A DNA stretch of 22,782 nucleotides from a virus: the IMG/VR virus record IMGVR_UViG_3300038626_000002, positions 1 through 22,782 of that record; one strand, written 5' to 3'. Shown in pieces: positions 1,132 through 14,631 of this stretch (position 1 is the first letter of the stretch; each line of letters begins with the position of its first letter). Below the pieces are notes generated by a model. The model was not told the DNA's origin. It did no database searches and saw only the letters and a list, made by a program, of their open reading frames with translations. The position numbers were made by a program, and so were the translations under genes.

Positions 1132-1304
1132 GTAATATACTAGAAGTATTTGTGTGGTTTTTATTGTTAATATTTGCTTTATCAGTAATTGGTAAAGCAA
1201 ATGAACCTATTTGCTATCAGCCTACAGATGATATTTATATCTGTCAGGATGATAACACTACTTATGTATTTACTGTAGACTGGCTAGAGTCTCAGCATTT
1301 CTAA
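1128..1304 (+). CDS. Small exported or membrane protein with two cysteines, 58 aa, function unknown
   Basis: The ATG at 1128 overlaps the TGA of the preceding 42-aa gene (ATGA), so the two are probably translationally coupled. Residues about 5-21 form a hydrophobic helix (EVFVWFLLLIFALSVIG), which could be a membrane anchor or an uncleaved signal. The rest is an acidic tail with two cysteines nine residues apart (ICYQ...YICQDD), which could form a disulphide in the periplasm. There is no lipobox. The last 35 nt (1270-1304) are antisense to the 3' end of the lysozyme gene, so the two transcription units converge and overlap in coding sequence. No strong separate Shine-Dalgarno is seen. No family is recognised. 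Confidence 0.5.
   Translation: MSNILEVFVWFLLLIFALSVIGKANEPICYQPTDDIYICQDDNTTYVFTVDWLESQHF
1172..1202. repeat. Perfect 10-bp inverted repeat at the convergent junction
   Basis: ATTTGCTTTA at 1172-1181 and TAAAGCAAAT at 1193-1202 are exact reverse complements around an 11-nt loop. The repeat lies inside the 58-aa gene and about 70 nt beyond the lysozyme stop, so transcripts from both sides could fold it. No T-run follows the stem on either strand and the stem is AT-rich, so it is not a textbook intrinsic terminator. It could still reduce read-through at the junction, or be chance. Confidence 0.35.
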
Positions 1305-1989
1305 TAGCTCTACCCTTAGTTTGCTTAGCATATCTAGACTTTAAGATATTATTAGCGGCCGCTTTATATCTACCTTCTTTTAGTTGTCTGGAAAAGATAG
1401 GCCACTTATTAATAAAAGCTGCTCCCATATTGTAAGACATGTCTTTTAATACCTGTTGTACCTCTTCGGGTTGTTCTTTTACCCAAGGAGCATTTTTATA
1501 TAGTCCAGCTGTATGAAGTTTTTCATCTTTCTCATACATCTTTTGTGCTTCTTCCCTAGTAATACCATTAGCAAATATACCTGATTTCTTTTCCTCTTTA
1601 GTAAGTTTATGACCATAACCTATAGTAGCATAACCTAAACTATCTTTATAGACTTTAGATCTAAACCCTTCATTTTGTTGTGTGGTTGTCATACTAGAAT
1701 CCTTTTGTTGTGTGGTTGTACCTTTTATACTATATTCACTAGTAGCTTTTGCAGTTAGTTCGTTTTCTGCCTTTAATGAACCAGCAACAAAACTAGATTT
1801 ATTAGGTAGCATATCTTTTATCCATATACTAGCAGCATCTAGTTCATCATACTCTTCTAAGTCCTCACCATAACTAAGTTGCTGAGACTCGTCCATAGTG
1901 GATAAGTTAGGTTCAATATTTGATGGTTTAGTTACTCTATTGTCATCACTCTCTACTATATTACCAAAGTTAAATTCTTGTTGTGTCAT
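1270..1989 (-). CDS. T4-type lysozyme (GH24 muramidase) with a 99-residue N-terminal extension
   Basis: The 239-residue product ends in a GH24 lysozyme domain (about residues 101-239) that cleaves the peptidoglycan glycan strand. The catalytic set has exactly T4 spacing: E107 (in NEGF), D116 (in YKDSLGY) and T122 (in ATIGYGH) match E11/D20/T26. A conserved tail with SRYAKQTKGRAIRNAETL follows. The N-terminal 99 residues are acidic, of low complexity and without a signal peptide or membrane helix, so export would need the holin, or the protein travels in the virion. The ATG at 1989 has an AAGGAG site 8 nt upstream that overlaps the stop of the internal virion protein gene. A second start with its own ribosome-binding site lies at 1692. 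It is the last gene of the late cluster, about 12 kb from the holin and spanin genes, and no other endolysin is visible. Confidence 0.92.
   Translation of the reverse strand: MTQQEFNFGNIVESDDNRVTKPSNIEPNLSTMDESQQLSYGEDLEEYDELDAASIWIKDMLPNKSSFVAGSLKAENELTAKATSEYSIKGTTTQQKDSSMTTTQQNEGFRSKVYKDSLGYATIGYGHKLTKEEKKSGIFANGITREEAQKMYEKDEKLHTAGLYKNAPWVKEQPEEVQQVLKDMSYNMGAAFINKWPIFSRQLKEGRYKAAANNILKSRYAKQTKGRAIRNAETLASLQ
1673..1719 (-). repeat. 17-bp direct repeat in the linker of the lysozyme gene
   Basis: TTTTGTTGTGTGGTTGT occurs at 1673-1689 and 1703-1719, a period of 30 bp or ten codons. It encodes TTTQQ twice (TTTQQKDSSM then TTTQQNEGF) exactly between the N-terminal extension and the catalytic domain. 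The internal ribosome-binding site lies between the two copies, as would happen if a short in-frame duplication accompanied joining of the two parts. Confidence 0.75.
1690..1706 (-). promoter_or_regulatory. Internal ribosome-binding site and start codon in the lysozyme gene
   Basis: On the minus strand AAAAGGA (1700-1706) precedes an in-frame ATG (1690-1692, Met100) by 7 nt, the same signal and spacing used by the recognised genes in this cluster. Starting here gives a 140-residue protein in which the catalytic glutamate is residue 8, close to Glu11 of T4 lysozyme. It would therefore yield an almost bare lysozyme domain in addition to the 239-residue form. Seen: the motif and its spacing. Inferred: its use. 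Confidence 0.55.
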
Positions 1990-2001
1990 TTACTATTCTC
2001 C

Positions 2002-5000
2002 TTATTTGTTAGATTTATTATCTACATCTATTAGATCTCTAAGAGTCTTACCAATCTCTCTACCTTTCTCATTAACTAATGGCATATCTAGTTCCTTACC
2101 AGTTAAATCTTTAAAACGTCTATTACGTATCTGTATATCCACTGGTATTTCTATATCTATATGAAACATATATCGTACCATTTCTGTTCTATGTCTACCT
2201 TCGTGTCCAGTGATAAATAACTTACCATTTTTTATTTCACCAAATAGTATTGGAGGTGCTACTCTTGGTATCTTACCTTCTTTATACTCTTTTAGTATGT
2301 TCTTACTGAAGTCTAGTGCTTTCTCGTTATTAACTTCAGGACTATAATCTAAAGGTTCTGATAGTCTCTTAAATAAAGAAGGTTTAGTCTTAATAGTAAA
2401 CCCTCTATAAGCATGTTCACTTTTAGATTGATTACCAATAATACCCTTAGGATAGTCCTCCAAGCTTCTAGAACTAAATAACTTATCTACCATAGTCTGT
2501 CTAACATTTTTAGGTAGTAATCTAATTTTCTTAGGGTCACCAGATAGTACAGCATCTGATACTGGCTTCTTCCATAATCCTTCTATCTGTAAATCTTTAC
2601 TAGCAGTAGTATCTATATTCTGTAAGGATTCTTTAACTAATTTATCATTTACATTTTCTGTATTTCTTAATGCTTTATTATATCTTTCAATTATCCTATT
2701 AGTTAATTTCTCAGCATCTTTTTTACTAAGTTTTACTCCTGAATCTCTTTGTATACTACCAATTAATATCTTAGCTTCTTTATTTATATAATCTGCTGTA
2801 GACTTAACATTATTATTACGAGTATCTACTTTCATTCTCTTAAAGTGTTTAAGTAGTTTATCCATCCTAGTATCTGTAACTATTTTATATGTAGAATCTA
2901 TAACTGCTTTACTATCTTCTGCACTAAGTTTAACGTCTCTTATCCATTCAATTAAATCTTCTGATTGTACTGCCTTTGATACTTCCCTACCTTTAACTGC
3001 TTGTTTACCCTTAGAGGTAACATATAAAGGCTCATTAGTTTTAGTAAATGGTACTGAATCAGGTTTCCATTCTAACAATTTAGGATTAGTTCGTACTATA
3101 TCTTGTATCATAGTATTCTTAACACCTGCTGTTAATTCGTTTATAGCTTTCTGAACTTCTTTCATCTTACTAGGAGTCTTTAGTATATTAGCTAGTCTAT
3201 CTTCCATACGTACAGCTCTAGCACTCTTACCTGGAAACATCTTTAGCACACGTCTAACTATTTGAGTAGTTAGGAATACTTTAAATCTTTCCCACATATC
3301 AGAGCCTAAACCACCCACATCAGTATCCGAACGTAATGCTATGGCACGTATAACATCATCAGTTCTAAATGCTTTTGCTACATCGTCAGCTAACTGTTGT
3401 ATCTGTTTACCTTGTTTAGTTACAAACCCTTTGGTAGAAAGTGCTTTACTAAATGTTTTCCATGATAAGTCATCTATATGGTCACCAAATGCTTCTTTAA
3501 TAATCAAGTTCTCTAGTGCATAAGTATCCTTAGAACCTATCACATTCTGTATAGCTTCAAATGTAAGCTCACCACTATCTCTATCAGCTTGAAGTAATTC
3601 TAGTACTCTTCCACTTGTTATTTGTTTTTTCTTATCTACCCTTCCAGTAGCACGTAATAATGCTTCACCTACTTTAGACTCCTTAAGTGCTATCATATCT
3701 ATGTAGTCAGCATTAACTTCTTTCCACCTAATATAATCTTCAGGTTCAAGTATATTTTTTATATGTTTCTCTACCTTATCCTTTACCTTAGTCCAATCAT
3801 TTAGATGCACTCCTTTTACTTTGCGTAGTACAGAATTTATATGTGGCATAGCAGTAAGATAATCTTTTATAGTAACATCAGGTTTACCTAATAATCTTTT
3901 TATAGCCGTTCTATCAGTAGCTATTGCTTCTAATTCTTCTGGTAGAGTTACAGGATTATCTACCTTAACAGCTTTATTAATAACACCCTTTTTAACAGTA
4001 TTATAGTTAGCTTTTACATTCTCAACGGACTGTCTCATTCTAATAGAAAAACCTTCAGTATCTACTGGTTCATCAATTAGTTTTTCAAACACTCGTCTCC
4101 TATTAACTCTGCCTTCATCCATAGCCTTCTGCATATCAGGGTCATATCCAGCTAGTCTCATTTTAAGTTTAGCACCTTTTTCACCCATATAGTCAAGCAA
4201 TGCCCTAGTTTTATCACCATAGCTACCATCAGTAGATTCTATCCCAGCCCAGTTAGTATATATTTTATCTGCTTCATCATCAGTAAGGTTGAATTGACTT
4301 TTATAGTACTGATATACATTCTTCTTTGCTGGTTCAGATAGTTTCTCCATAATTTTAACTGCACCAGCACTTACAATACCTGATGCTAAACCTAATGCAG
4401 CTGATGTACCTTTGTCTTCTGTAGCTCTAGCAGTAGCATAACCTAGCATACCTTCTACTGCAAAGATACCTAATTTAGATTGTATTGTAAAAGGTAGTGT
4501 TATTAATGATGGAAAGACCTCACCTGCTGTACCCTTAGAAAAGAAGTCTTTATCTTGTCTATTTCTAATATACATTTTAGTCCACTTATCTATCTCTTCA
4601 AACCTAGCATTATATTCTTTATCATCTATACGACCAATAGCATGTCTTATATCATTAGCAGCTTTACTAACACCAGTCATAGTTTTAAGTACGCCCATAT
4701 GAAAGTCACTATTAATAACAGAAGGCCCGAGAGCTTTAACATCCTCATCCCACTGTTTGTCCTGCTTAGCTTCATGTGCTTTATTATACAAGTGAGCTAG
4801 TATTTGTCTATCTGCTTCTTCTGGTGCAATATCTTTTTCTAATAGTGCAGACTTAGCACCTTGTATATCAAACATAGCACCACTCTGTTCTAAATGGGCT
4901 AATATTTGTTCATCACTAGCACCAGCATTTCTAGCGCCTAGATAATCAAATGTATTCTCTATGTTATTAAGACGTTTTTCTCTTTGTACTACTGCATCAT

Positions 5001-5124
5001 CAGCAATAAATTCTTGTGCTTGAGGGTCAGTCTCTTGCATATGTTGTACAGTAGGATTCTCAGACTGTACTATTCCAGTACCATCATTAATATTTTCTAT
5101 TTGTTCTCTTAAACTAACCATCAT
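2002..5124 (-). CDS. Large internal virion (ejection) protein with a C-terminal HEGRHR, ParB-like motif
   Basis: The 1040-residue protein is mostly charged and helical. Residues about 200-260 form a hydrophobic, Ala/Gly-rich stretch (LITLPFTIQSKLGIFAVEGM, then AALGLASGIVSAGAV) that could insert into a membrane. The final 100 residues contain ITGHEGRHRTEMVRYM (about 971-986), resembling the D/E-G-x-H/R-R motif of the ParB/Srx fold found in phage polyvalent proteins. Size, position between portal and lysozyme, and the membrane-like segment suggest a T7 gp16 or N4-type protein injected with the DNA. No lytic transglycosylase motif was seen; the muramidase is the next gene. The start overlaps the portal stop: ATGATG gives possible starts at 5124 and 5121. 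The AAGGA site is only 2 nt from the first but 5 nt from the second, so 5121 may be used. The role is inferred from context. Confidence 0.75.
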   Translation of the reverse strand: MMVSLREQIENINDGTGIVQSENPTVQHMQETDPQAQEFIADDAVVQREKRLNNIENTFDYLGARNAGASDEQILAHLEQSGAMFDIQGAKSALLEKDIAPEEADRQILAHLYNKAHEAKQDKQWDEDVKALGPSVINSDFHMGVLKTMTGVSKAANDIRHAIGRIDDKEYNARFEEIDKWTKMYIRNRQDKDFFSKGTAGEVFPSLITLPFTIQSKLGIFAVEGMLGYATARATEDKGTSAALGLASGIVSAGAVKIMEKLSEPAKKNVYQYYKSQFNLTDDEADKIYTNWAGIESTDGSYGDKTRALLDYMGEKGAKLKMRLAGYDPDMQKAMDEGRVNRRRVFEKLIDEPVDTEGFSIRMRQSVENVKANYNTVKKGVINKAVKVDNPVTLPEELEAIATDRTAIKRLLGKPDVTIKDYLTAMPHINSVLRKVKGVHLNDWTKVKDKVEKHIKNILEPEDYIRWKEVNADYIDMIALKESKVGEALLRATGRVDKKKQITSGRVLELLQADRDSGELTFEAIQNVIGSKDTYALENLIIKEAFGDHIDDLSWKTFSKALSTKGFVTKQGKQIQQLADDVAKAFRTDDVIRAIALRSDTDVGGLGSDMWERFKVFLTTQIVRRVLKMFPGKSARAVRMEDRLANILKTPSKMKEVQKAINELTAGVKNTMIQDIVRTNPKLLEWKPDSVPFTKTNEPLYVTSKGKQAVKGREVSKAVQSEDLIEWIRDVKLSAEDSKAVIDSTYKIVTDTRMDKLLKHFKRMKVDTRNNNVKSTADYINKEAKILIGSIQRDSGVKLSKKDAEKLTNRIIERYNKALRNTENVNDKLVKESLQNIDTTASKDLQIEGLWKKPVSDAVLSGDPKKIRLLPKNVRQTMVDKLFSSRSLEDYPKGIIGNQSKSEHAYRGFTIKTKPSLFKRLSEPLDYSPEVNNEKALDFSKNILKEYKEGKIPRVAPPILFGEIKNGKLFITGHEGRHRTEMVRYMFHIDIEIPVDIQIRNRRFKDLTGKELDMPLVNEKGREIGKTLRDLIDVDNKSNK

Positions 5125-6938
5125 AATCCTTCATTAGTATTTTGAGGTAATTTTAGCTGTTGACTATTAGCAGACTGCCCGCCTAATTGCCCACCTGAAC
5201 CTAAGTTCTCTTGCATTTGTGGTTGAGGTTGTAGCATATTAGCTGTCTCATCTAGTATTCTAGCTATATCAACACTATGTTTAGACTTCATACTCTTAAC
5301 AGATAGTGAAGCAGCTTTCATATAACCTGCTGGATTAACAGTCATAAGTGCATTACCTATGTTACCACTAAGCATAGTCTCTAACATTAGTTGGTTCTTT
5401 TCATCTTCATCGTTATAACTAACTGGGTCTATCTCTATTTCTACATCACTAAATTCTAGGTCTGTATCAGGGTCATTGAGTGGCATCATTAATATGTTAC
5501 CATATTTATCTTTTTCAGGTTCACTAGTTTCTTCGTCTATTACCTCGTCATAAAATACTTCACCTGTAACTGGATGCTGTAATGGTTTATTTAGTGCTAC
5601 CCATCTTTCACCAGTAGCTTCATCAACAACACGTATGATTTGTTCTGATCTATAGTACTGTTTAATAAGGTTAACTGTATCCCAGCCATCTAACATATAA
5701 AATAATTCAAGCTTGTTATTTATATATCTTAAAGCCATAATAGCAGCGTTTTGCTGTAGTTTAACTTTACGTCCACTATCACTAGCAAAGGCCATACCTA
5801 AGAAACTATCGTTAATACCTAGTACTCTTTGTATTCTATCAAATGCCTTATCTATGATAATATACTGCTGCTGTATGTCACCACTTAAATTATCTATTTT
5901 GATACCATTTAAGTTGTTAACTGGTATAACAGAGTTAACACGTTGATATGCTTTAGTAAATTCTTCTACATCATCTACAGCACCGTCTTGTACCATCACT
6001 TTATTAGTATTAGCCATCATCTGTATCTGAATTAATGCCTGATTAATAGCATTTTGAGACTGGTATACTTCTTCAAATACACCATAGTATTCAGCATTAT
6101 TACTATCTTGCAACTTAGTCACGTTGTATGAGAACTTAACATCTTTATACGGTAATTTCTTTTTACTTAATAGATAATCACCAGACCAGTAACAACTCCA
6201 TACCTGACCATTATCATCTACTATATTAGTATGAACTACTAAGAAGTTATCATAAGTATGGTAGTACCCTTGAAATTGTGTGTCATGCCTAAATGTAAAT
6301 TCAGATTCATCAGTATTTAAGAAGTTATAGTAGGCATCTAACTTATTATGTTTATTAGGAAACATTTTCTTAACTTCATCTTTGTGCATCCACTTAAATC
6401 TATGTATAAATCTAGCATCTGAATAATCAGCACTAGTACTCATAGGGTCTAATACTACTTCACTAGATGGTACATAGTTCTTTAATATCTTATTAACTTT
6501 TCTACCAAATCTATCAGTTTTAGGGTTACCATTAGAATCAGTATCAACTACTACTTCTTTCTCTACTACCATAAGTCCTGATAACATCAAGTCTAGCTTT
6601 AGTTTATCTCCTACATTATCAAATCTATTAGTTCTATTTACATAAGAAACTACATCACTAAGAACACCAGCAATAGTAATATATCGTTGGTCAGTAGGAG
6701 ATACTTTAACTGTATTAATTACAGTAGAGTAATAGCCTATCATCTGCCTAGCAAATAACTTAATAATATTAAATGTCTCAGCAGGCTGTCCTCTATCAGC
6801 TAGTACAGTTAGCTGTTCATCAGTGTACTGTCTATTATGATACATATCTTCTATCATATTAGCCTTAGTCCTACTAGCTAGGTAGTCATCATATCCTAAT
6901 TTAAAGGTATCTTTAAGAGTATCTATATTAATCTTCAT
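5121..6938 (-). CDS. Portal protein (P22/N4-like podovirus type)
   Basis: The 605-residue protein matches podovirus portals in length and layout. The N-terminus has a conserved RGQPAETFNIIKLFARQM stretch (about 48-65) followed by a GYYS segment. The middle contains YGVFEEVYQSQNAINQALIQ, and the long helical region carries FASDSGRKVKLQQNAAIMAL, which resembles the stem or wing of P22-like portals. The C-terminus is Gln/Gly/Asn-rich (PQPQMQENLGSGGQLGGQ). The portal forms the dodecameric ring at one head vertex through which terminase packs DNA and to which adaptor and nozzle bind. The ATG at 6938 follows GGAGG at 7 nt, a sequence that also encodes the last two glycines of the upstream gene. Its position is unusual: it lies among ejection-protein genes about 14 kb from the terminase gene instead of beside it. 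Confidence 0.88.
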   Translation of the reverse strand: MKINIDTLKDTFKLGYDDYLASRTKANMIEDMYHNRQYTDEQLTVLADRGQPAETFNIIKLFARQMIGYYSTVINTVKVSPTDQRYITIAGVLSDVVSYVNRTNRFDNVGDKLKLDLMLSGLMVVEKEVVVDTDSNGNPKTDRFGRKVNKILKNYVPSSEVVLDPMSTSADYSDARFIHRFKWMHKDEVKKMFPNKHNKLDAYYNFLNTDESEFTFRHDTQFQGYYHTYDNFLVVHTNIVDDNGQVWSCYWSGDYLLSKKKLPYKDVKFSYNVTKLQDSNNAEYYGVFEEVYQSQNAINQALIQIQMMANTNKVMVQDGAVDDVEEFTKAYQRVNSVIPVNNLNGIKIDNLSGDIQQQYIIIDKAFDRIQRVLGINDSFLGMAFASDSGRKVKLQQNAAIMALRYINNKLELFYMLDGWDTVNLIKQYYRSEQIIRVVDEATGERWVALNKPLQHPVTGEVFYDEVIDEETSEPEKDKYGNILMMPLNDPDTDLEFSDVEIEIDPVSYNDEDEKNQLMLETMLSGNIGNALMTVNPAGYMKAASLSVKSMKSKHSVDIARILDETANMLQPQPQMQENLGSGGQLGGQSANSQQLKLPQNTNEGL

Positions 6939-8524: not shown

Positions 8525-9202
8525 TTAATATAAAACGCCATCATCTACTCCCCCATAAGGTGCAGTAGTTCCTACTGAAGATGGCATACCAGTAATCATC
8601 CTACTACCGTAACCAACTAGGCTGTTTATATTATTACCTAGATTCTGTTGTATTCCAGCTTGATTAACACCTGCTGAGGTATATGTACTAGATAAGTTAT
8701 TACTAGTATTACCCATAGCATTAGATATATTTTGTCCTTGATTTAATCCTAATGATAAGAATCTAAGTCTAGCATCACTAGCTCTTTGATCTGCACTAGC
8801 TCTTGACTGTGCTTTCTGCATCTCAGCACTATAGATATTCTGGTTAGTAAAATTAGCTTCTAGACCACTATCTGTCATACCTCTTTGAGCCATTTGTTGT
8901 TCTATCTCTTTATTAGCTTGCTGCTTAGCTTTTTGTATTTCAGTAACTTCTTTATTACTAATTGTTTTACCAGTCAAGTTTTTATAGTAATCACCTTCTG
9001 ACTCTTGTAAATCACCATATATATCTTTCCAGTCATTATACTGTTCCATCTGAAAATCTAGTTGGTTCTGTTGTACTTGAGCCGCAGCATTTGCTGAATC
9101 ACTAATAGCCTTAGACTGTGTCTTTGATGAACTATATGATACTGCCGCACTAACTCCAGTACCTATAAGCATAGCACCAGCCGCACTTATACCAAATGCC
9201 AT
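8525..9202 (-). CDS. Small internal virion/ejection-type protein with an N-terminal hydrophobic segment (225 aa)
   Basis: The 225-residue protein begins with FGISAAGAMLIGTGVSAAVS, a glycine- and alanine-rich hydrophobic stretch able to enter a membrane. A long Gln/Ala-rich helical region follows (about 30-140), with the segment QQMAQRGMTDSGLEANFTNQ, a type common in podovirus gp14-like internal virion proteins. The C-terminus is Asn/Gly/Ser-rich and ends GGVDDGVLY. Known: T7 gp14-like proteins form the outer-membrane part of the DNA ejection channel. Inferred: the same role here, from composition and the following internal-protein and portal genes. The ATG at 9202 has AAGGAG 7 nt upstream, overlapping the stop of the cupin gene, so the two are coupled. 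Confidence 0.68.
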   Translation of the reverse strand: MAFGISAAGAMLIGTGVSAAVSYSSSKTQSKAISDSANAAAQVQQNQLDFQMEQYNDWKDIYGDLQESEGDYYKNLTGKTISNKEVTEIQKAKQQANKEIEQQMAQRGMTDSGLEANFTNQNIYSAEMQKAQSRASADQRASDARLRFLSLGLNQGQNISNAMGNTSNNLSSTYTSAGVNQAGIQQNLGNNINSLVGYGSRMITGMPSSVGTTAPYGGVDDGVLY

Positions 9203-9664: not shown

Positions 9665-11149
9665 TTACGAAGATATATTTAAAACACCTGAGTTATTCCA
9701 TAGTCTACCAGTAACTCCTGGGTCAGTAGTTGGCAATCCAGTTAAAGTAACATTACCACTAACAGTTAAGTTACCACCTATAGTTACATTGCCATCTACT
9801 GTCAAATCATCTTCAAAGTACACATTAGCTGTACCACCTAATATTGGTGCTACATGTAATGCCCAGCCATCACCGAAGGCTTTTCGTATATCTACTACAG
9901 CATTACCAGTACTAGGTGCACCTACAGCAAGTACTGAGTTACCTGAGCCTCCTGACTCGAATACTGCATTATATGTTCCTAGTGATATAGTATGTAACAC
10001 CGCAGTATATCCGTCAGCTGTTTGGGTCTCATCAAGATAAAGTGAGCCACCTTTCATAGTAGCACCATAAATATGTGCATCATTATCAGGGCCGGCTCCA
10101 CCTGCTGCATCCATATCAAACCCTGTTCCACCTGTAGTAGTAATCCTATCTGCTGCTAGTGTGCCAGTGATTATAGCATCGCCATTAATATATAGCTTAG
10201 TACTATATTGCCAAGAACTTCCATTATATGTATATATAGCAGGGAAGTTAGGATAGTCAAGTGTTTGACTAATGATAATCTGGTCTCCTTCTATCTCTGT
10301 ACTATATATAGTACCTGAGGTAGCTAAGTTCCATAAATTAGCAACGTCAATACTACTCATAGTTGCACCATCAGTATAATAAGAACTACTTACTGTATAG
10401 AATTGTATAGCAGTACCTCTAGCACCATCAGTACCATTAGTGCCATCCTCTCCATCTACACCATTAGTACCGTCCCATCTAGAAACTGTAGACCAGCCAT
10501 TTAAATCTATTAGCCAAGTACCATCTTCTTGAGGTAACCACGTAGATTTAGACATATAGATAGGACTAGCTTGAGCAGGCACATCACCTGGATTATCATA
10601 CCAATCTGTAGGATAAGTAAATGTAGTACCATCAAAACTACCTTCGGTATCTAAAGGTTCTACAGATAAATTACTATATGCAAATTCTATCCATCTAGCA
10701 GGTAAACCATTCCATCTTACTGGTGTAGACCATTCACTATATAAAGACCATATACCAGTAGTCATATCAAATGCCCAAGTAGATGATGATTGATATACTA
10801 TAGCATTAGGGTCTGGTACTTCTGATGGTGTATCATACCAATTAACTGGATAAGTCATAACTGAACCATTATAACTACCACCAGTACTAGCTATTGTCTC
10901 CTCATTAGAATAAGCAAACTCTGTATAAGTTATATCAGGTATAGATAGTTCACCATCATCAACCAAAGTATCTAAAATAGTTTGCATAGCACTTATTAGT
11001 AAAGCTAGTCTATTTAGCTCATTATTAATTTCTGTCAGGTCTGTATCACCTTCACCAGTTTGTATAGATTCTATTCTACTATTTAACTCAGTAAGATAAC
11101 GTCTAACTGCTATCTCATCTGTTAGGTCTATTGGAACTACTGTACTCAT
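9665..11149 (-). CDS. Tail fibre with duplicated N-terminal module and short collagen-like segment (494 aa)
   Basis: Residues about 16-65 are a probable coiled coil (RYLTELNSRIESIQ, then EINNELNRLALLISAM), suited to trimer formation. Two related modules follow, about 77-147 and 155-225, each running EFAYSN ... YP-x2-WYD-x-P-x2-VP ... STW ... WS-x3-RW. Residues 227-245 are Gly-x-Y-like (DGTNGVDGEDGTNGTDGARG). The next part contains INGDAIITGTLAADRI, a pattern shared with phage tail-tip and host-specificity proteins. The C-terminus is a run of short beta repeats (VDGNVTIGGNLTVSGNVTLT) ending in LWNNSGVLNIS, a common fibre ending. A role in host binding on the short tail is inferred. The start overlaps the stop of the nozzle gene (TAATG), with an AGGGA site inside that stop region. 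Confidence 0.8.
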   Translation of the reverse strand: MSTVVPIDLTDEIAVRRYLTELNSRIESIQTGEGDTDLTEINNELNRLALLISAMQTILDTLVDDGELSIPDITYTEFAYSNEETIASTGGSYNGSVMTYPVNWYDTPSEVPDPNAIVYQSSSTWAFDMTTGIWSLYSEWSTPVRWNGLPARWIEFAYSNLSVEPLDTEGSFDGTTFTYPTDWYDNPGDVPAQASPIYMSKSTWLPQEDGTWLIDLNGWSTVSRWDGTNGVDGEDGTNGTDGARGTAIQFYTVSSSYYTDGATMSSIDVANLWNLATSGTIYSTEIEGDQIIISQTLDYPNFPAIYTYNGSSWQYSTKLYINGDAIITGTLAADRITTTGGTGFDMDAAGGAGPDNDAHIYGATMKGGSLYLDETQTADGYTAVLHTISLGTYNAVFESGGSGNSVLAVGAPSTGNAVVDIRKAFGDGWALHVAPILGGTANVYFEDDLTVDGNVTIGGNLTVSGNVTLTGLPTTDPGVTGRLWNNSGVLNISS

Positions 11150-13008
11150 TATTCCCTACCTCTAGCATTAAATTCTAATTCATGTAACTCACCAGTACCA
11201 ACTACAGTATAATGTAGACCGTAACCATCACGCGTTCCGATAGATTTTGCATTAAACTGAGTTTTACTAGGGTCTAATGTTTTACTAAATATAGATACAC
11301 CATCTAAGAATATCTCTATAGTTATATCACCTTCATAAGATATATAAAAATCTTTAAATGTCTTACGTTCACTAAGTCTACCAGTAACAGTAAGTAATGG
11401 TGATTTATAAGACATCTGAGCATATGATGAACTAGCGTTCATTATAGACAAAGTAGTATCACCATTTTTTAGTATATATAAAGTATCATTAAACTTTCCT
11501 ACATAACCTAATAAGTCTATAGTTCTTAAGCAAATATTGTATCTAGTATCTACAACCAATATACCAGCTGTAGTAGTTAAGAAATACATACTATCATGTA
11601 CTACCGCATTATAAGATACTGGAGTATACCTACCCAATTTAGGTAATGTTAGAAGTTGTATCTGACCACCATTAGTAGCACATACACCATCATGAGATAA
11701 CCATGCTAGTGTATTATTTACAAACTGTATAGTGTTATGATTTACACACCCATGCTCACCACTAAGTAAAAATTTAGAGAATGTTGATGGGCTATTACCA
11801 GTAACAATATAGGATGAATACTCAGTAAATACAACTAGACCATTCTGTAATGCTCCAATACCAGTTATAACTTCATCAAAATCTATGAAGTTAGTTGCAG
11901 GCCAATATGCAGGCTCTGCTATATTGCTATAGTATAACTTATTACCTACTGCACCAAATAACATTGCATAAGATAAAGTTAAGTATTTAAAATTACTAGG
12001 CGGAGGTAAATTATTAAAAGTATCACAAATATAATTACCTGCTATAGTCTCATCAAGTGCATTATCATAGTATGTAAAGAAACCTGATACATAATCTATT
12101 TCAGTAACTAATGTATAATCAGTAAGTGTTCCTCCTATTCTATATAATCTAAACTTATCTATCCTAGTATCAGTTGTTGTAACTAGCCCTACCACTCTTA
12201 CCTGATTTCTTGCACATACTGCTTCAGCTGATGGAGAAGGTGCTGTTTCATATCCAGTTGATGAGTCATAGTAAGTAAATATGTAACTATAAGTACCATC
12301 TAGATTATACTCAGAATAATATCCCGTATCTGTTATTTTTAATACTTCTAATGTTGTATTACCTATTAGTGTAATAGCAGGATTAGCTATAATATCTGCA
12401 TCTGCTGAGTTATCATTATAAGGACTACCATCCCAGTTAGCAGCATCTATTGTATATACTCTATAGAAATTACTACCTCCTGCAGTGGTTCTATAAATAC
12501 GTATCTCATCAGTACTAGCTAATTTAGGCCAACTAATATTTATAAGTGTTTGTTCATTAGATAGACCAGATATATATAGTATATTAGAGAGAGGCCCTTC
12601 TTCATCTAAGTCAGAGTTATATGTTAGTACTATATATTTATAATTACCAGTTAAGTTACCAGCAGTAGATTGTACTGTTAGCTCAGGTGCTGTAGTAGGT
12701 GCATCTACTCCAACTGCTTTGCTATTTATACCATCTAATGTTTCATACAACTCTCCTACATTAGCATAATATAGCACATCATCATATTCTGCGAATGAGG
12801 TTTCAGTAGTAAAACTAACTAATGTATCTTCAGATTCAAACCATTTAAAATAACTATCTGAAGATATTGATGTTTCTAATGGTAGTTTTACTGGTTTCAG
12901 TATGCCCGGCTCATTATCACAATTAGTATATACTTGACTCTCTGTCTGAGATATTAAAGATGGGTGAGCTCTAGTAAAAAGTCCGCCACTAAAGTCATTT
13001 ATTCTCAT
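11149..13008 (-). CDS. Tail nozzle/tubular protein (T7 gp12 / P22 gp10-like)
   Basis: The 619-residue, beta-rich protein begins MRINDFSGGLFTRAHPSLIS and continues with TESQVYTNCDNEPG, the FSGG...P-LI...Q...NCDN pattern typical of podovirus tail nozzle or stabilisation proteins that extend the tail tube below the adaptor. Fibronectin-like stretches follow (for example PTTAPELTVQSTAG and GNYKYIVLTYNSD, with a second YSYIFTYYDSSTGYETAPS copy). An open frame extends upstream to 13047, but the ATG at 13008 is chosen because AAGGAG lies 8 nt before it and because homologous proteins start at MRxNDFSGG. The first 14 nt overlap the outer spanin gene. Identity with the T7 or P22 proteins is by fold-level resemblance only. 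Confidence 0.8.
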   Translation of the reverse strand: MRINDFSGGLFTRAHPSLISQTESQVYTNCDNEPGILKPVKLPLETSISSDSYFKWFESEDTLVSFTTETSFAEYDDVLYYANVGELYETLDGINSKAVGVDAPTTAPELTVQSTAGNLTGNYKYIVLTYNSDLDEEGPLSNILYISGLSNEQTLINISWPKLASTDEIRIYRTTAGGSNFYRVYTIDAANWDGSPYNDNSADADIIANPAITLIGNTTLEVLKITDTGYYSEYNLDGTYSYIFTYYDSSTGYETAPSPSAEAVCARNQVRVVGLVTTTDTRIDKFRLYRIGGTLTDYTLVTEIDYVSGFFTYYDNALDETIAGNYICDTFNNLPPPSNFKYLTLSYAMLFGAVGNKLYYSNIAEPAYWPATNFIDFDEVITGIGALQNGLVVFTEYSSYIVTGNSPSTFSKFLLSGEHGCVNHNTIQFVNNTLAWLSHDGVCATNGGQIQLLTLPKLGRYTPVSYNAVVHDSMYFLTTTAGILVVDTRYNICLRTIDLLGYVGKFNDTLYILKNGDTTLSIMNASSSYAQMSYKSPLLTVTGRLSERKTFKDFYISYEGDITIEIFLDGVSIFSKTLDPSKTQFNAKSIGTRDGYGLHYTVVGTGELHELEFNARGRE

Positions 13009-13288
13009 TGTTAAACTCCTTATTGAATTGTATATTCTGTCTCTCATAAAAGTCTACTTTATGCCTTACTTTTTGAGACACTTCCGAAGCTTTATGTAAT
13101 TCCTTTTTATTAACAGAGTAGTATGTAGCATTAATATCATAGTAGTCAGTAATAGTAAATGGTTCTACTTTATATAATACCCTTAGTCTTGGTATATTTT
13201 CTTTAATATATATCTTCTTAGGTTCTACTACTGGTTTAGGTGAGCAGCCACTAAAAAGTAAGGCTGTTATTAATAGTACTGTTCGCAT
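12995..13288 (-). CDS. Outer-membrane lipoprotein, o-spanin (Rz1-like)
   Basis: From the ATG at 13288 the 97-residue product has a lipoprotein signal, MRTVLLITALLFSGC, with lipobox LFSGC and lipidated Cys15. SPKPVVEPKK follows, a proline-containing start like that of Rz1 proteins. The rest is a charged periplasmic region (ITDYYDINATYYSVNKKE, then a helical EVSQKVRHKVDFYERQN). The o-spanin pairs with the i-spanin across the periplasm to fuse the membranes at the end of lysis. This start is preferred over one nine codons upstream because AAGGA stands 7 nt before it and because the shorter form gives a normal signal peptide. The gene begins inside the i-spanin gene (38-nt overlap), the classic Rz/Rz1 arrangement. 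It is longer than lambda Rz1 (60 aa). Gram-negative host implied. Confidence 0.82.
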   Translation of the reverse strand: MRTVLLITALLFSGCSPKPVVEPKKIYIKENIPRLRVLYKVEPFTITDYYDINATYYSVNKKELHKASEVSQKVRHKVDFYERQNIQFNKEFNNENK

Positions 13289-13520
13289 CTGAATATCCTT
13301 TGAAGTATGTCTCAAATGTATTTACTTTAGTATCACTTTTACATTTCTGTAAGTCAACCATTATATTATCTTTTTCTAATGTTATAGAGTTTATCTTATT
13401 TTCCAGTTCTGAATTATTATTTCTTAAATCTTTTAGTGGTTTACTATGATATTTATAATATATAGAACCTAATATAAGTATAATAATAATAGTTATACTT
13501 AGTTTAGCATATTGTAGCAT
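13251..13520 (-). CDS. Inner-membrane spanin (Rz-like), 89 aa
   Basis: Residues about 7-23 are a single membrane helix (LSITIIIILILGSIYYKY) with a short N-terminal tail. A heptad-like periplasmic coiled coil follows (LRNNNSELENKINSITLEKD, about 32-52), then a Cys/Lys-rich and polar C-terminal region. This is the i-spanin layout: inner-membrane anchor plus coiled coil that contacts the outer-membrane lipoprotein. The ATG at 13520 overlaps the holin stop (TAATG), with AAGGA 6 nt upstream. At 89 residues it is shorter than lambda Rz (153). The identification rests on layout and on the overlapping lipoprotein gene, because spanin sequences diverge too far for motif matching. Confidence 0.8.
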   Translation of the reverse strand: MLQYAKLSITIIIILILGSIYYKYHSKPLKDLRNNNSELENKINSITLEKDNIMVDLQKCKSDTKVNTFETYFKGYSDANSTINNSLTF

Positions 13521-13969
13521 TACTTATCCTTATCTTCACTTAGTCTTATTAACATAGTTCTTATCCTATGACCTAGAGCTGCTACTGCATCCCACTCAGG
13601 TAACTCTTCTTTACTTCTTATTGTATATATATTACCTACAATACTATAAACTTCCGATAGTATAAGTATATTCATACCAATATATAAAAATTCATCACTA
13701 TTAGCTTGCAATGCCTTAGCACCTAAAGCTATAACTAGTGGAATTAGCACAAGAGAAAACTTAGATACTACACCATACTTCATTTTATTTGATGATATAC
13801 AGTGACTTAATGTCCTTGCTTTAAGTATGCCAGTAACATAGTCTATAAATAATAAATAACCTAAGATTGTAAATGTTTCTACATCTAATCCTAAGTATGT
13901 TAATATGCTAGCTAAAAATACTAGTATTGTATTAAGTACTACTTTCATCCCTATTGTCCACTCTATCAC
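13520..13969 (-). CDS. Phage holin of the toxin-secretion/holin family 4 (Cp-1-like) type
   Basis: The product (149 residues from a GTG at 13969) has about four hydrophobic segments: VVLNTILVFLASILTYLG, FTILGYLLFIDYVTGILKA, KFSLVLIPLVIALGAKAL and LYIGMNILILSEVYSIVGNI. The second holds the D-x-x-T-G-I motif (IDYVTGILKA) characteristic of family-4 holins, and the charged C-terminus ends LSEDKDK. It would form the inner-membrane hole that releases the lysozyme. Start choice: a TTG two codons earlier sits directly against the AAGGA and is too close. The GTG has AAGGA 6 nt upstream and shares one base with the preceding stop (TAGTG). It forms a holin/i-spanin/o-spanin block with overlapping ends, placed between tail genes. 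Confidence 0.82.
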   Translation of the reverse strand: MIEWTIGMKVVLNTILVFLASILTYLGLDVETFTILGYLLFIDYVTGILKARTLSHCISSNKMKYGVVSKFSLVLIPLVIALGAKALQANSDEFLYIGMNILILSEVYSIVGNIYTIRSKEELPEWDAVAALGHRIRTMLIRLSEDKDK

Positions 13970-14631
13970 TACCAATCCTTGACATTATTTCTATATCTTG
14001 TTACTGCTTGCCCTAGAACCAACGTACCATCAATGTCGTTAGCTACATCTTCTGCTGTAATTGTATAATCATAAGGTTCATTTTCATACTTCTCGCATTC
14101 AGCGATAGTTGCAAGAGCGTTAATTTCTGATTCTTTAGTATCTTTTGTGTTAAATAAAGAAATACCATTCATTTGAATTTCATTAATAATAGTGTCATAA
14201 TCAGCACTAGTTGCGTCATGCTTTATGTTATCAGCATCTTTTATTTGTGGTAATGCAAATTTCTTTCCTATTTCAAAGTTTACAATATCATTGTACCCAC
14301 CATCCACATCAAAACCTAATGAAGTTGTAACCCTAGGTCTTATTTGCTTTTCTTTATATACTTTTGACAGGTCTTTTAGCATAGATTTTTTTACTTCATC
14401 AAGTGGTCTTTCTGTCTTAGTGTAACCAACTACATACTTGTTACCTACCAATGAAGAAGATTTAACACTTGTGTAATATCTTCTATTAGGTGGAGATTGA
14501 TACTCTATTTTGTAGTAATCATAATCATTGAGTTGTTTTTCTGTAAGTCTATCAACATACATAGTGCCATCAAGTGTTGTAATAGTTTTACTATTTTCTA
14601 TCTTATTTGTGTTTTGATTGTAAAGTTTCAT
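13969..14631 (-). CDS. Tail fibre assembly chaperone-like protein (DUF4376-like C-terminus)
   Basis: The 220-residue protein has no signal peptide or membrane segment. The C-terminal half contains LGFDVDGGYNDIVNFEIGKK, then KDADNIKHDATSADYDTIIN and NTKDTKESEINALATIAE. This spaced pattern is like the DUF4376 domain found in phage tail-fibre assembly proteins. It follows a LamG tail protein gene and an adaptor-fibre gene, the usual place for a fibre chaperone. I judge the family by pattern rather than alignment. The ATG at 14631 has AAGGAG 7 nt upstream, and the stop shares one base with the holin GTG. Confidence 0.6.
   Translation of the reverse strand: MKLYNQNTNKIENSKTITTLDGTMYVDRLTEKQLNDYDYYKIEYQSPPNRRYYTSVKSSSLVGNKYVVGYTKTERPLDEVKKSMLKDLSKVYKEKQIRPRVTTSLGFDVDGGYNDIVNFEIGKKFALPQIKDADNIKHDATSADYDTIINEIQMNGISLFNTKDTKESEINALATIAECEKYENEPYDYTITAEDVANDIDGTLVLGQAVTRYRNNVKDW

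Follow-up and report, generated by a model that had tools for sequence, protein, structure and literature searches.

A GH24 muramidase gene with an acidic N-terminal extension in the ejection gene cluster of a viral contig and an in-frame ATG at its domain boundary

The lysozyme gene and its neighbours

The stretch of DNA analysed here (the window) is linear and makes up the whole of an IMG/VR record (22,782 bases). It is most likely a fragment lacking some 20 kb, judging by the complete genomes and long contigs of its relatives (mostly ~37-46 kb), and an endolysin may therefore still lie outside it. The gene of main interest, for which the original prediction had named no strand, lies on the minus strand and encodes a GH24 (T4-type) muramidase preceded by an N-terminal extension. 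It occupies the position immediately after the gene of a 1040-aa putative long ejection protein (hereafter, the slot), which is itself next after the P22-type portal gene. Coordinates of all features are collected in Table 1.

Table 1. Features of the lysozyme locus, the lysis cassette and tagged slot proteins of relatives
Feature	Position	Strand	Remarks
Lysozyme gene: N-terminal extension and GH24 (T4-type) muramidase, 239 aa	1270..1989	-	Start 1989, stop codon 1272-1270
Strong SD region of the main start, TAAGGAGAATAGTAA	1990..2009	-	
N-terminal extension, 99 residues	1693..1989	-	Net charge -11; no transmembrane stretch; low model confidence
Catalytic domain, aa 100-239	1270..1692 (stop included)	-	Net charge +10; E107/D116/T122
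Internal in-frame ATG, codon 100	1690..1692	-	
SD-like AAAAGGA	1700..1706	-	7 nt 5' of the internal ATG (AAAAGGA-TTCTAGT)
Two exact 17-nt copies, ACAACCACACAACAAAA, 30 nt apart	1719-1703, 1689-1673 (1673..1719)	-	Flank the internal ATG
1040-aa protein, putative long ejection protein	2002..5124	-	Comes after the portal; homologues directly 3' of the portal in relatives
P22-type portal	5121..6938	-	Query for finding relatives
DNA ejection protein (phrog_21132)	8525..9202	-	
Gene after the lysis cassette	11149..13008	-	Likely start 13008
Holin (phage_holin_4_1), Rz-like and Rz1-like cassette without hydrolase	12995..13975	-	
Tagged slot proteins of relatives	L032:7738, L032:7908, L081:14454, L092:7198, L106:3900, L123:14136, L123:14784, L213:7654, L225:8124, L230:7411		

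By profile search, Phage_lysozyme (PF00959) was matched at residues 105-224 (E 3.8e-13; 50.3 bits, above the curated cut-off of 22.3), and T4 lysozymes were the PDB matches of the gene product. Both direct reading and alignment place E107, D116 and T122 at the spacing of E11-D20-T26 in T4 lysozyme (Glu-x8-Asp-x5-Thr). The AlphaFold2 model, built from 38 aligned sequences, has pLDDT values of ~46-56 over residues 1-100 and of 89-98 from residue 101 on, and a helix (residues 49-60) is modelled in the extension. A signal or SAR endolysin was also considered and was ruled out by the highest 19-residue hydropathy in the extension, which is 0.37. Beyond the domain itself, no close homologues of the lysozyme were found in IMG/VR or among GenBank phages, and the portal-related group, in which PF00959 is rare, yielded no relative with the same architecture of extension plus GH24 domain.

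Relatives were collected by portal searches. A first set of 42 related IMG/VR loci was followed by one of 80, with some overlap, and three genome contigs and named phages such as PH1, KF-1 and VPMS1 were also obtained. The direct homologue search with the 1040-aa protein returned none, and its homologues were reached solely as neighbours of related portals. Its ~340 C-terminal residues (window 2002-3030), which include a GHEGRHR stretch and have no family match, are mostly missing in relatives. Three GenBank records (MW202665.1 and MW202744.1, i.e. L008 and L009, and KX365747.1) label as 'putative terL' a protein that matches the P22-type portal. Two near phage-sized contigs of the group, L131 (SAAC01000007) and L132 (PCWQ01000011), have been binned into Negativicutes and Komeilibacteria MAGs; these placements are probably binning errors, or else host links.

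The internal ATG and the junction repeat

Because the AlphaFold2 model is confident only from about residue 101, the modelled domain boundary coincides with the in-frame ATG at codon 100. The original prediction had proposed that translation from this ATG removes exactly the 99-residue extension, and the model agrees; the product would be the 140-aa catalytic domain, in which E107 becomes residue 8, as had been stated. The AAAAGGA upstream of the ATG is likewise present at the claimed distance. These features raise the possibility of a dual product, with the long form serving as a virion muramidase and the internal start giving a 140-aa lysis endolysin.

Several properties of the site are compatible with such a second start. 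With an anti-SD energy of -5.4 kcal/mol, it ranks close to the median for the 19 gene starts in the window but falls well short of the start of the lysozyme gene itself (-9.3 kcal/mol) and that of the portal (-10.0 kcal/mol). Of the internal in-frame ATGs of the window, 125 in all, 3 are preceded by a site as strong and properly spaced. The chance of finding one is thus ~0.5% if it must fall no more than 11 codons from a chosen boundary, and ~10% for any place in a 239-codon gene. The RNA flanking the internal site is no more structured than shuffled sequences. In a comparison of the site's surroundings with the whole window on either strand, the start region of the gene itself matched best, by a narrow margin noticed post hoc (score 14, the next being 13.5).

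Other observations argue against a selected start or bear on the junction. When the peptide QQKDSSM was re-encoded by synonymous draws with the codon usage of the window, the site was recreated in 29% of draws, and the SD-like sequence alone is therefore weak evidence. The duplication of TTTQQ that had been described at the junction is real: at the DNA level, 17 nt are repeated exactly and in direct orientation, 30 nt apart, and the junction looks fusion- or insertion-like. The slot proteins of the syntenic loci L042 and L079 have no Met, and thus no start codon, at the boundary between extension and C-terminal domain.

The short form would also be an unusual GH24 enzyme. In each of the 66 GH24 ORFs examined in viral contigs, 10 or more residues can precede the catalytic Glu, which places the Glu at residue 11 or later, as against seven preceding residues and a Glu at residue 8 in the 140-aa form. 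The position four residues before the Glu is I, L or V in 48 of 48 distinct GH24 sequences and Thr in the window's lysozyme, which lacks the helix A with hydrophobic core that usually precedes the Glu (although this is no formal family criterion). Since Met100, at Glu-7, is the sole hydrophobic residue among the eight preceding the Glu, it may also have been retained as a core residue. We infer that the 140-aa form would be unstable. The model nonetheless forms a short helix at residues 102-107, confident despite the polar sequence, and the remaining fold is intact.

The polar helix A, unlike that of the 48 compared sequences, and the repeat at the junction might together suggest a degenerate or recently fused gene, whose domain was joined by recombination and lost its helix A, leaving a weak or dead enzyme. 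We regard this as very improbable, given that the catalytic triad is intact, the frame is open and the model is confident across the whole domain.

The slot after the long ejection gene and the lysis cassette

Of the fully syntenic relatives, L042 is the closest; it matches the gene order of the window through the portal and the long ejection protein (37% identical). Its slot gene encodes a 175-aa protein whose N-terminus (LTAGQQLAYGEEWFKDL, with QQLAYGEE) resembles that of the lysozyme gene (DESQQLSYGEDLEEYDE), where the motif reads QQLSYGED. Alignment of the two extensions beats shuffled sequences (p 0.004), and the strict QQLxYGE motif is confined to these two syntenic genes. A similarity between the extensions of the window and L079 was also considered and was rejected, not being above shuffles (p 0.29). 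The C-terminal domain of the L042 protein is of an NNNPSNI type, unlike that of the window, and has no PDB, Pfam, PHROG or NCBIfam match; its structural model was poor (mean pLDDT 41.6) and was not used. A homologue of this domain occurs in an otherwise different phage contig (L077:4947-5693), where the end of a gene module encodes a protein of 248 aa. Its C-terminal domain is of an NNNPGNI type, its identity to the L042 slot protein is 57%, and it belongs to no database family.

Among the relatives, the contents of the slot are exchanged. In most close relatives the long ejection gene is directly followed by a convergent helicase gene, and in the others one or two genes lie between. These encode, besides the GH24 protein of the window and the NNNPSNI-type protein of L042, an Amidase_2 behind a 115-residue extension (L079), GH108 proteins (L024 and L025) and several unclassified proteins. 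Ten distinct slot proteins with otherwise unrelated remainders (Table 1) share an N-terminal CxKLxKEAL-like tag (C-x-K-L-x-K-E-A-L), for which 14 matches were found among 9,454 ORFs, compared with 0.4 expected by shuffling. Every match directly follows the long ejection gene or another tagged slot gene, and none lies elsewhere in the 9,454 ORFs. This arrangement suggests that the position after the long ejection gene is an exchangeable cargo slot and that the tag is a possible packaging or ejection signal. The extension of the window's lysozyme carries the QQLxYGE motif and not this tag. For one tagged protein (L092), a transglycosylase-like profile was matched weakly (E 0.02) and did not reach the curated cut-off. 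Another (L123:14784-15503 and L216:6866-7585) has no Pfam match and contains a YRGTAL...GSTSKD stretch reminiscent of ADP-ribosyltransferases. The GH108 gene of L025 (14594-15202) was considered as a second dual-start case and rejected, since its relative L024 starts at the inner site; the upstream ATG in L025, with a strong inner SD-ATG downstream, is probably an annotation trap.

The lysozyme gene does not adjoin the holin/Rz/Rz1 cassette, from which it is separated by ~11 kb. The original prediction had noted that no endolysin lies beside the holin and spanins; we confirmed this, and relatives carry a hydrolase exactly there. In the window, Rz1 overlaps the next gene and leaves no room for a hydrolase between them; the start of that gene is probably 13008 (TAAGGAG, -8.8 kcal/mol) in preference to the first ATG at 13047. 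The hydrolase or hydrolase-like genes found before this structural gene in relatives comprise an Amidase_3 (G032), M15-type peptidases (G022, G009 and L123) and a DUF5675 protein (G003), and the gene at the same place in G040 is probably also of the M15 type, though without a profile match. In L042 a separate Amidase_3 endolysin directly follows Rz and Rz1, and its slot protein is thus not the sole candidate hydrolase of that genome. No other wall-hydrolase family was detected among the window genes scanned, and a Pfam search of 89 ORFs of 80-320 aa in the early halves of five relatives revealed no endolysin family. With the endolysin slot empty and the early halves of relatives without an endolysin, either the lysozyme serves lysis or the missing half of this genome differs from theirs.

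The former case could be realized in two ways. The single 239-aa protein might act as the endolysin in lysis, whether or not it is also in the virion, without any second start. More distant relatives do have an endolysin at the end of the structural module (GH108 in KF-1; GH24 in L082 and L089), where these annotated or predicted genes precede convergent early genes, and the window genes scanned offer no other hydrolase. However, the endolysins of these distant relatives have no long acidic extension, and the motif of the extension is common to L042, which has another endolysin; we consider this explanation unlikely. Alternatively, the internal start would supply the missing enzyme. Genes for two-product endolysins are known in phages of Gram-positive hosts, but such products were deemed unlikely for single-domain endolysins of Gram-negative ones, and among portal genes, which served as controls in that survey, 15.2% were predicted to have internal starts (PMC9430671). 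Taken together with the abnormal helix A, the synonymous draws and the syntenic loci, a dual product is a possible, though not the best, explanation and appears rather unlikely.

Proposed function and comparison with known systems

The reading that we favour, at a probability of roughly 0.55, is that of one virion-carried 239-aa muramidase, docked to the ejection machinery by its extension and used at DNA entry. According to this proposal, the gene would yield mainly one protein, in which the GH24 muramidase follows an acidic, largely unstructured N-terminal segment. This segment would dock the enzyme to the ejection machinery of the virion, so that the muramidase could be packaged, let out with the ejection proteins and cut peptidoglycan during DNA entry. 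The internal ATG and its SD-like site would most likely be incidental, a consequence of the 10-codon repeat where the two parts were fused, and would give little or no separate product. Of the dual role originally predicted, the virion or ejection role of the long form thus gains support from the slot and the N-terminal motif, whereas the internal start as a selected second start does not. Points against the virion reading are the empty endolysin slot together with the lack of an endolysin family in the early halves of five relatives, the ATG at the exact modelled boundary, the slight resemblance of its surroundings to the gene's own start region, the confidently modelled helix A, and the L042 slot domain, for which no family match was found.

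A broader proposal, in which the slot is a modular protein-delivery site of this podovirus group, with short N-terminal tags that bring diverse payloads into the particle, and the internal start in this phage frees an untagged muramidase that replaces a lost endolysin, would provide for both entry and exit; we consider it quite doubtful. If the cargo slot is real, it would give these podoviruses a simple tag-plus-payload route by which enzymes, often wall hydrolases, reach virions and cells. If the dual start were also true, this would be an unusual single gene with separate entry and exit enzymes.

In comparison with known systems, the gene resembles T4 lysozyme and the GH24 endolysins (PF00959, phrog_7) in fold, Glu-Asp-Thr spacing and size of the catalytic domain, but differs from them in its 99-residue acidic extension, its polar helix A and its location in an ejection operon, away from the holin. 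Virion muramidases (T4 gp5-type hubs, and internal virion lysozymes of phrog_13211, phrog_430 and phrog_2083) are similar in domain sequence and in the presumed entry role; unlike them, the window's enzyme has a small gene of its own and does not form a segment of a hub or of a long internal protein. An in-frame internal start with SD, lying between regions of one gene, is shared with two-polypeptide endolysins (Pinto et al. 2022, PMC9430671; CTP1L, PMC4777826). The second product has its role within the endolysin itself there, and the phages concerned infect Gram-positive hosts (PMC9430671); in CTP1L it is a truncated wall-binding domain (PMC4777826). None of these cases splits a virion form from a lysis form (PMC9430671, PMC4777826). 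Kafunavirus KF-1, Pseudoalteromonas phage PH1 and Vibrio phage VPMS1 have a similar structural gene order and ~50% portal identity; their GenBank records contain no GH24 gene, and KF-1 has the GH108 endolysin mentioned above. Finally, in the internal proteins of T4 diverse payloads are joined to a conserved capsid targeting sequence (PMC3012670). The slot proteins resemble them in having a short conserved N-terminal tag ahead of varied payloads, a likeness of logic and not of homology; T4 belongs to another phage group, and the packaging of the slot proteins is a proposal made from sequence.
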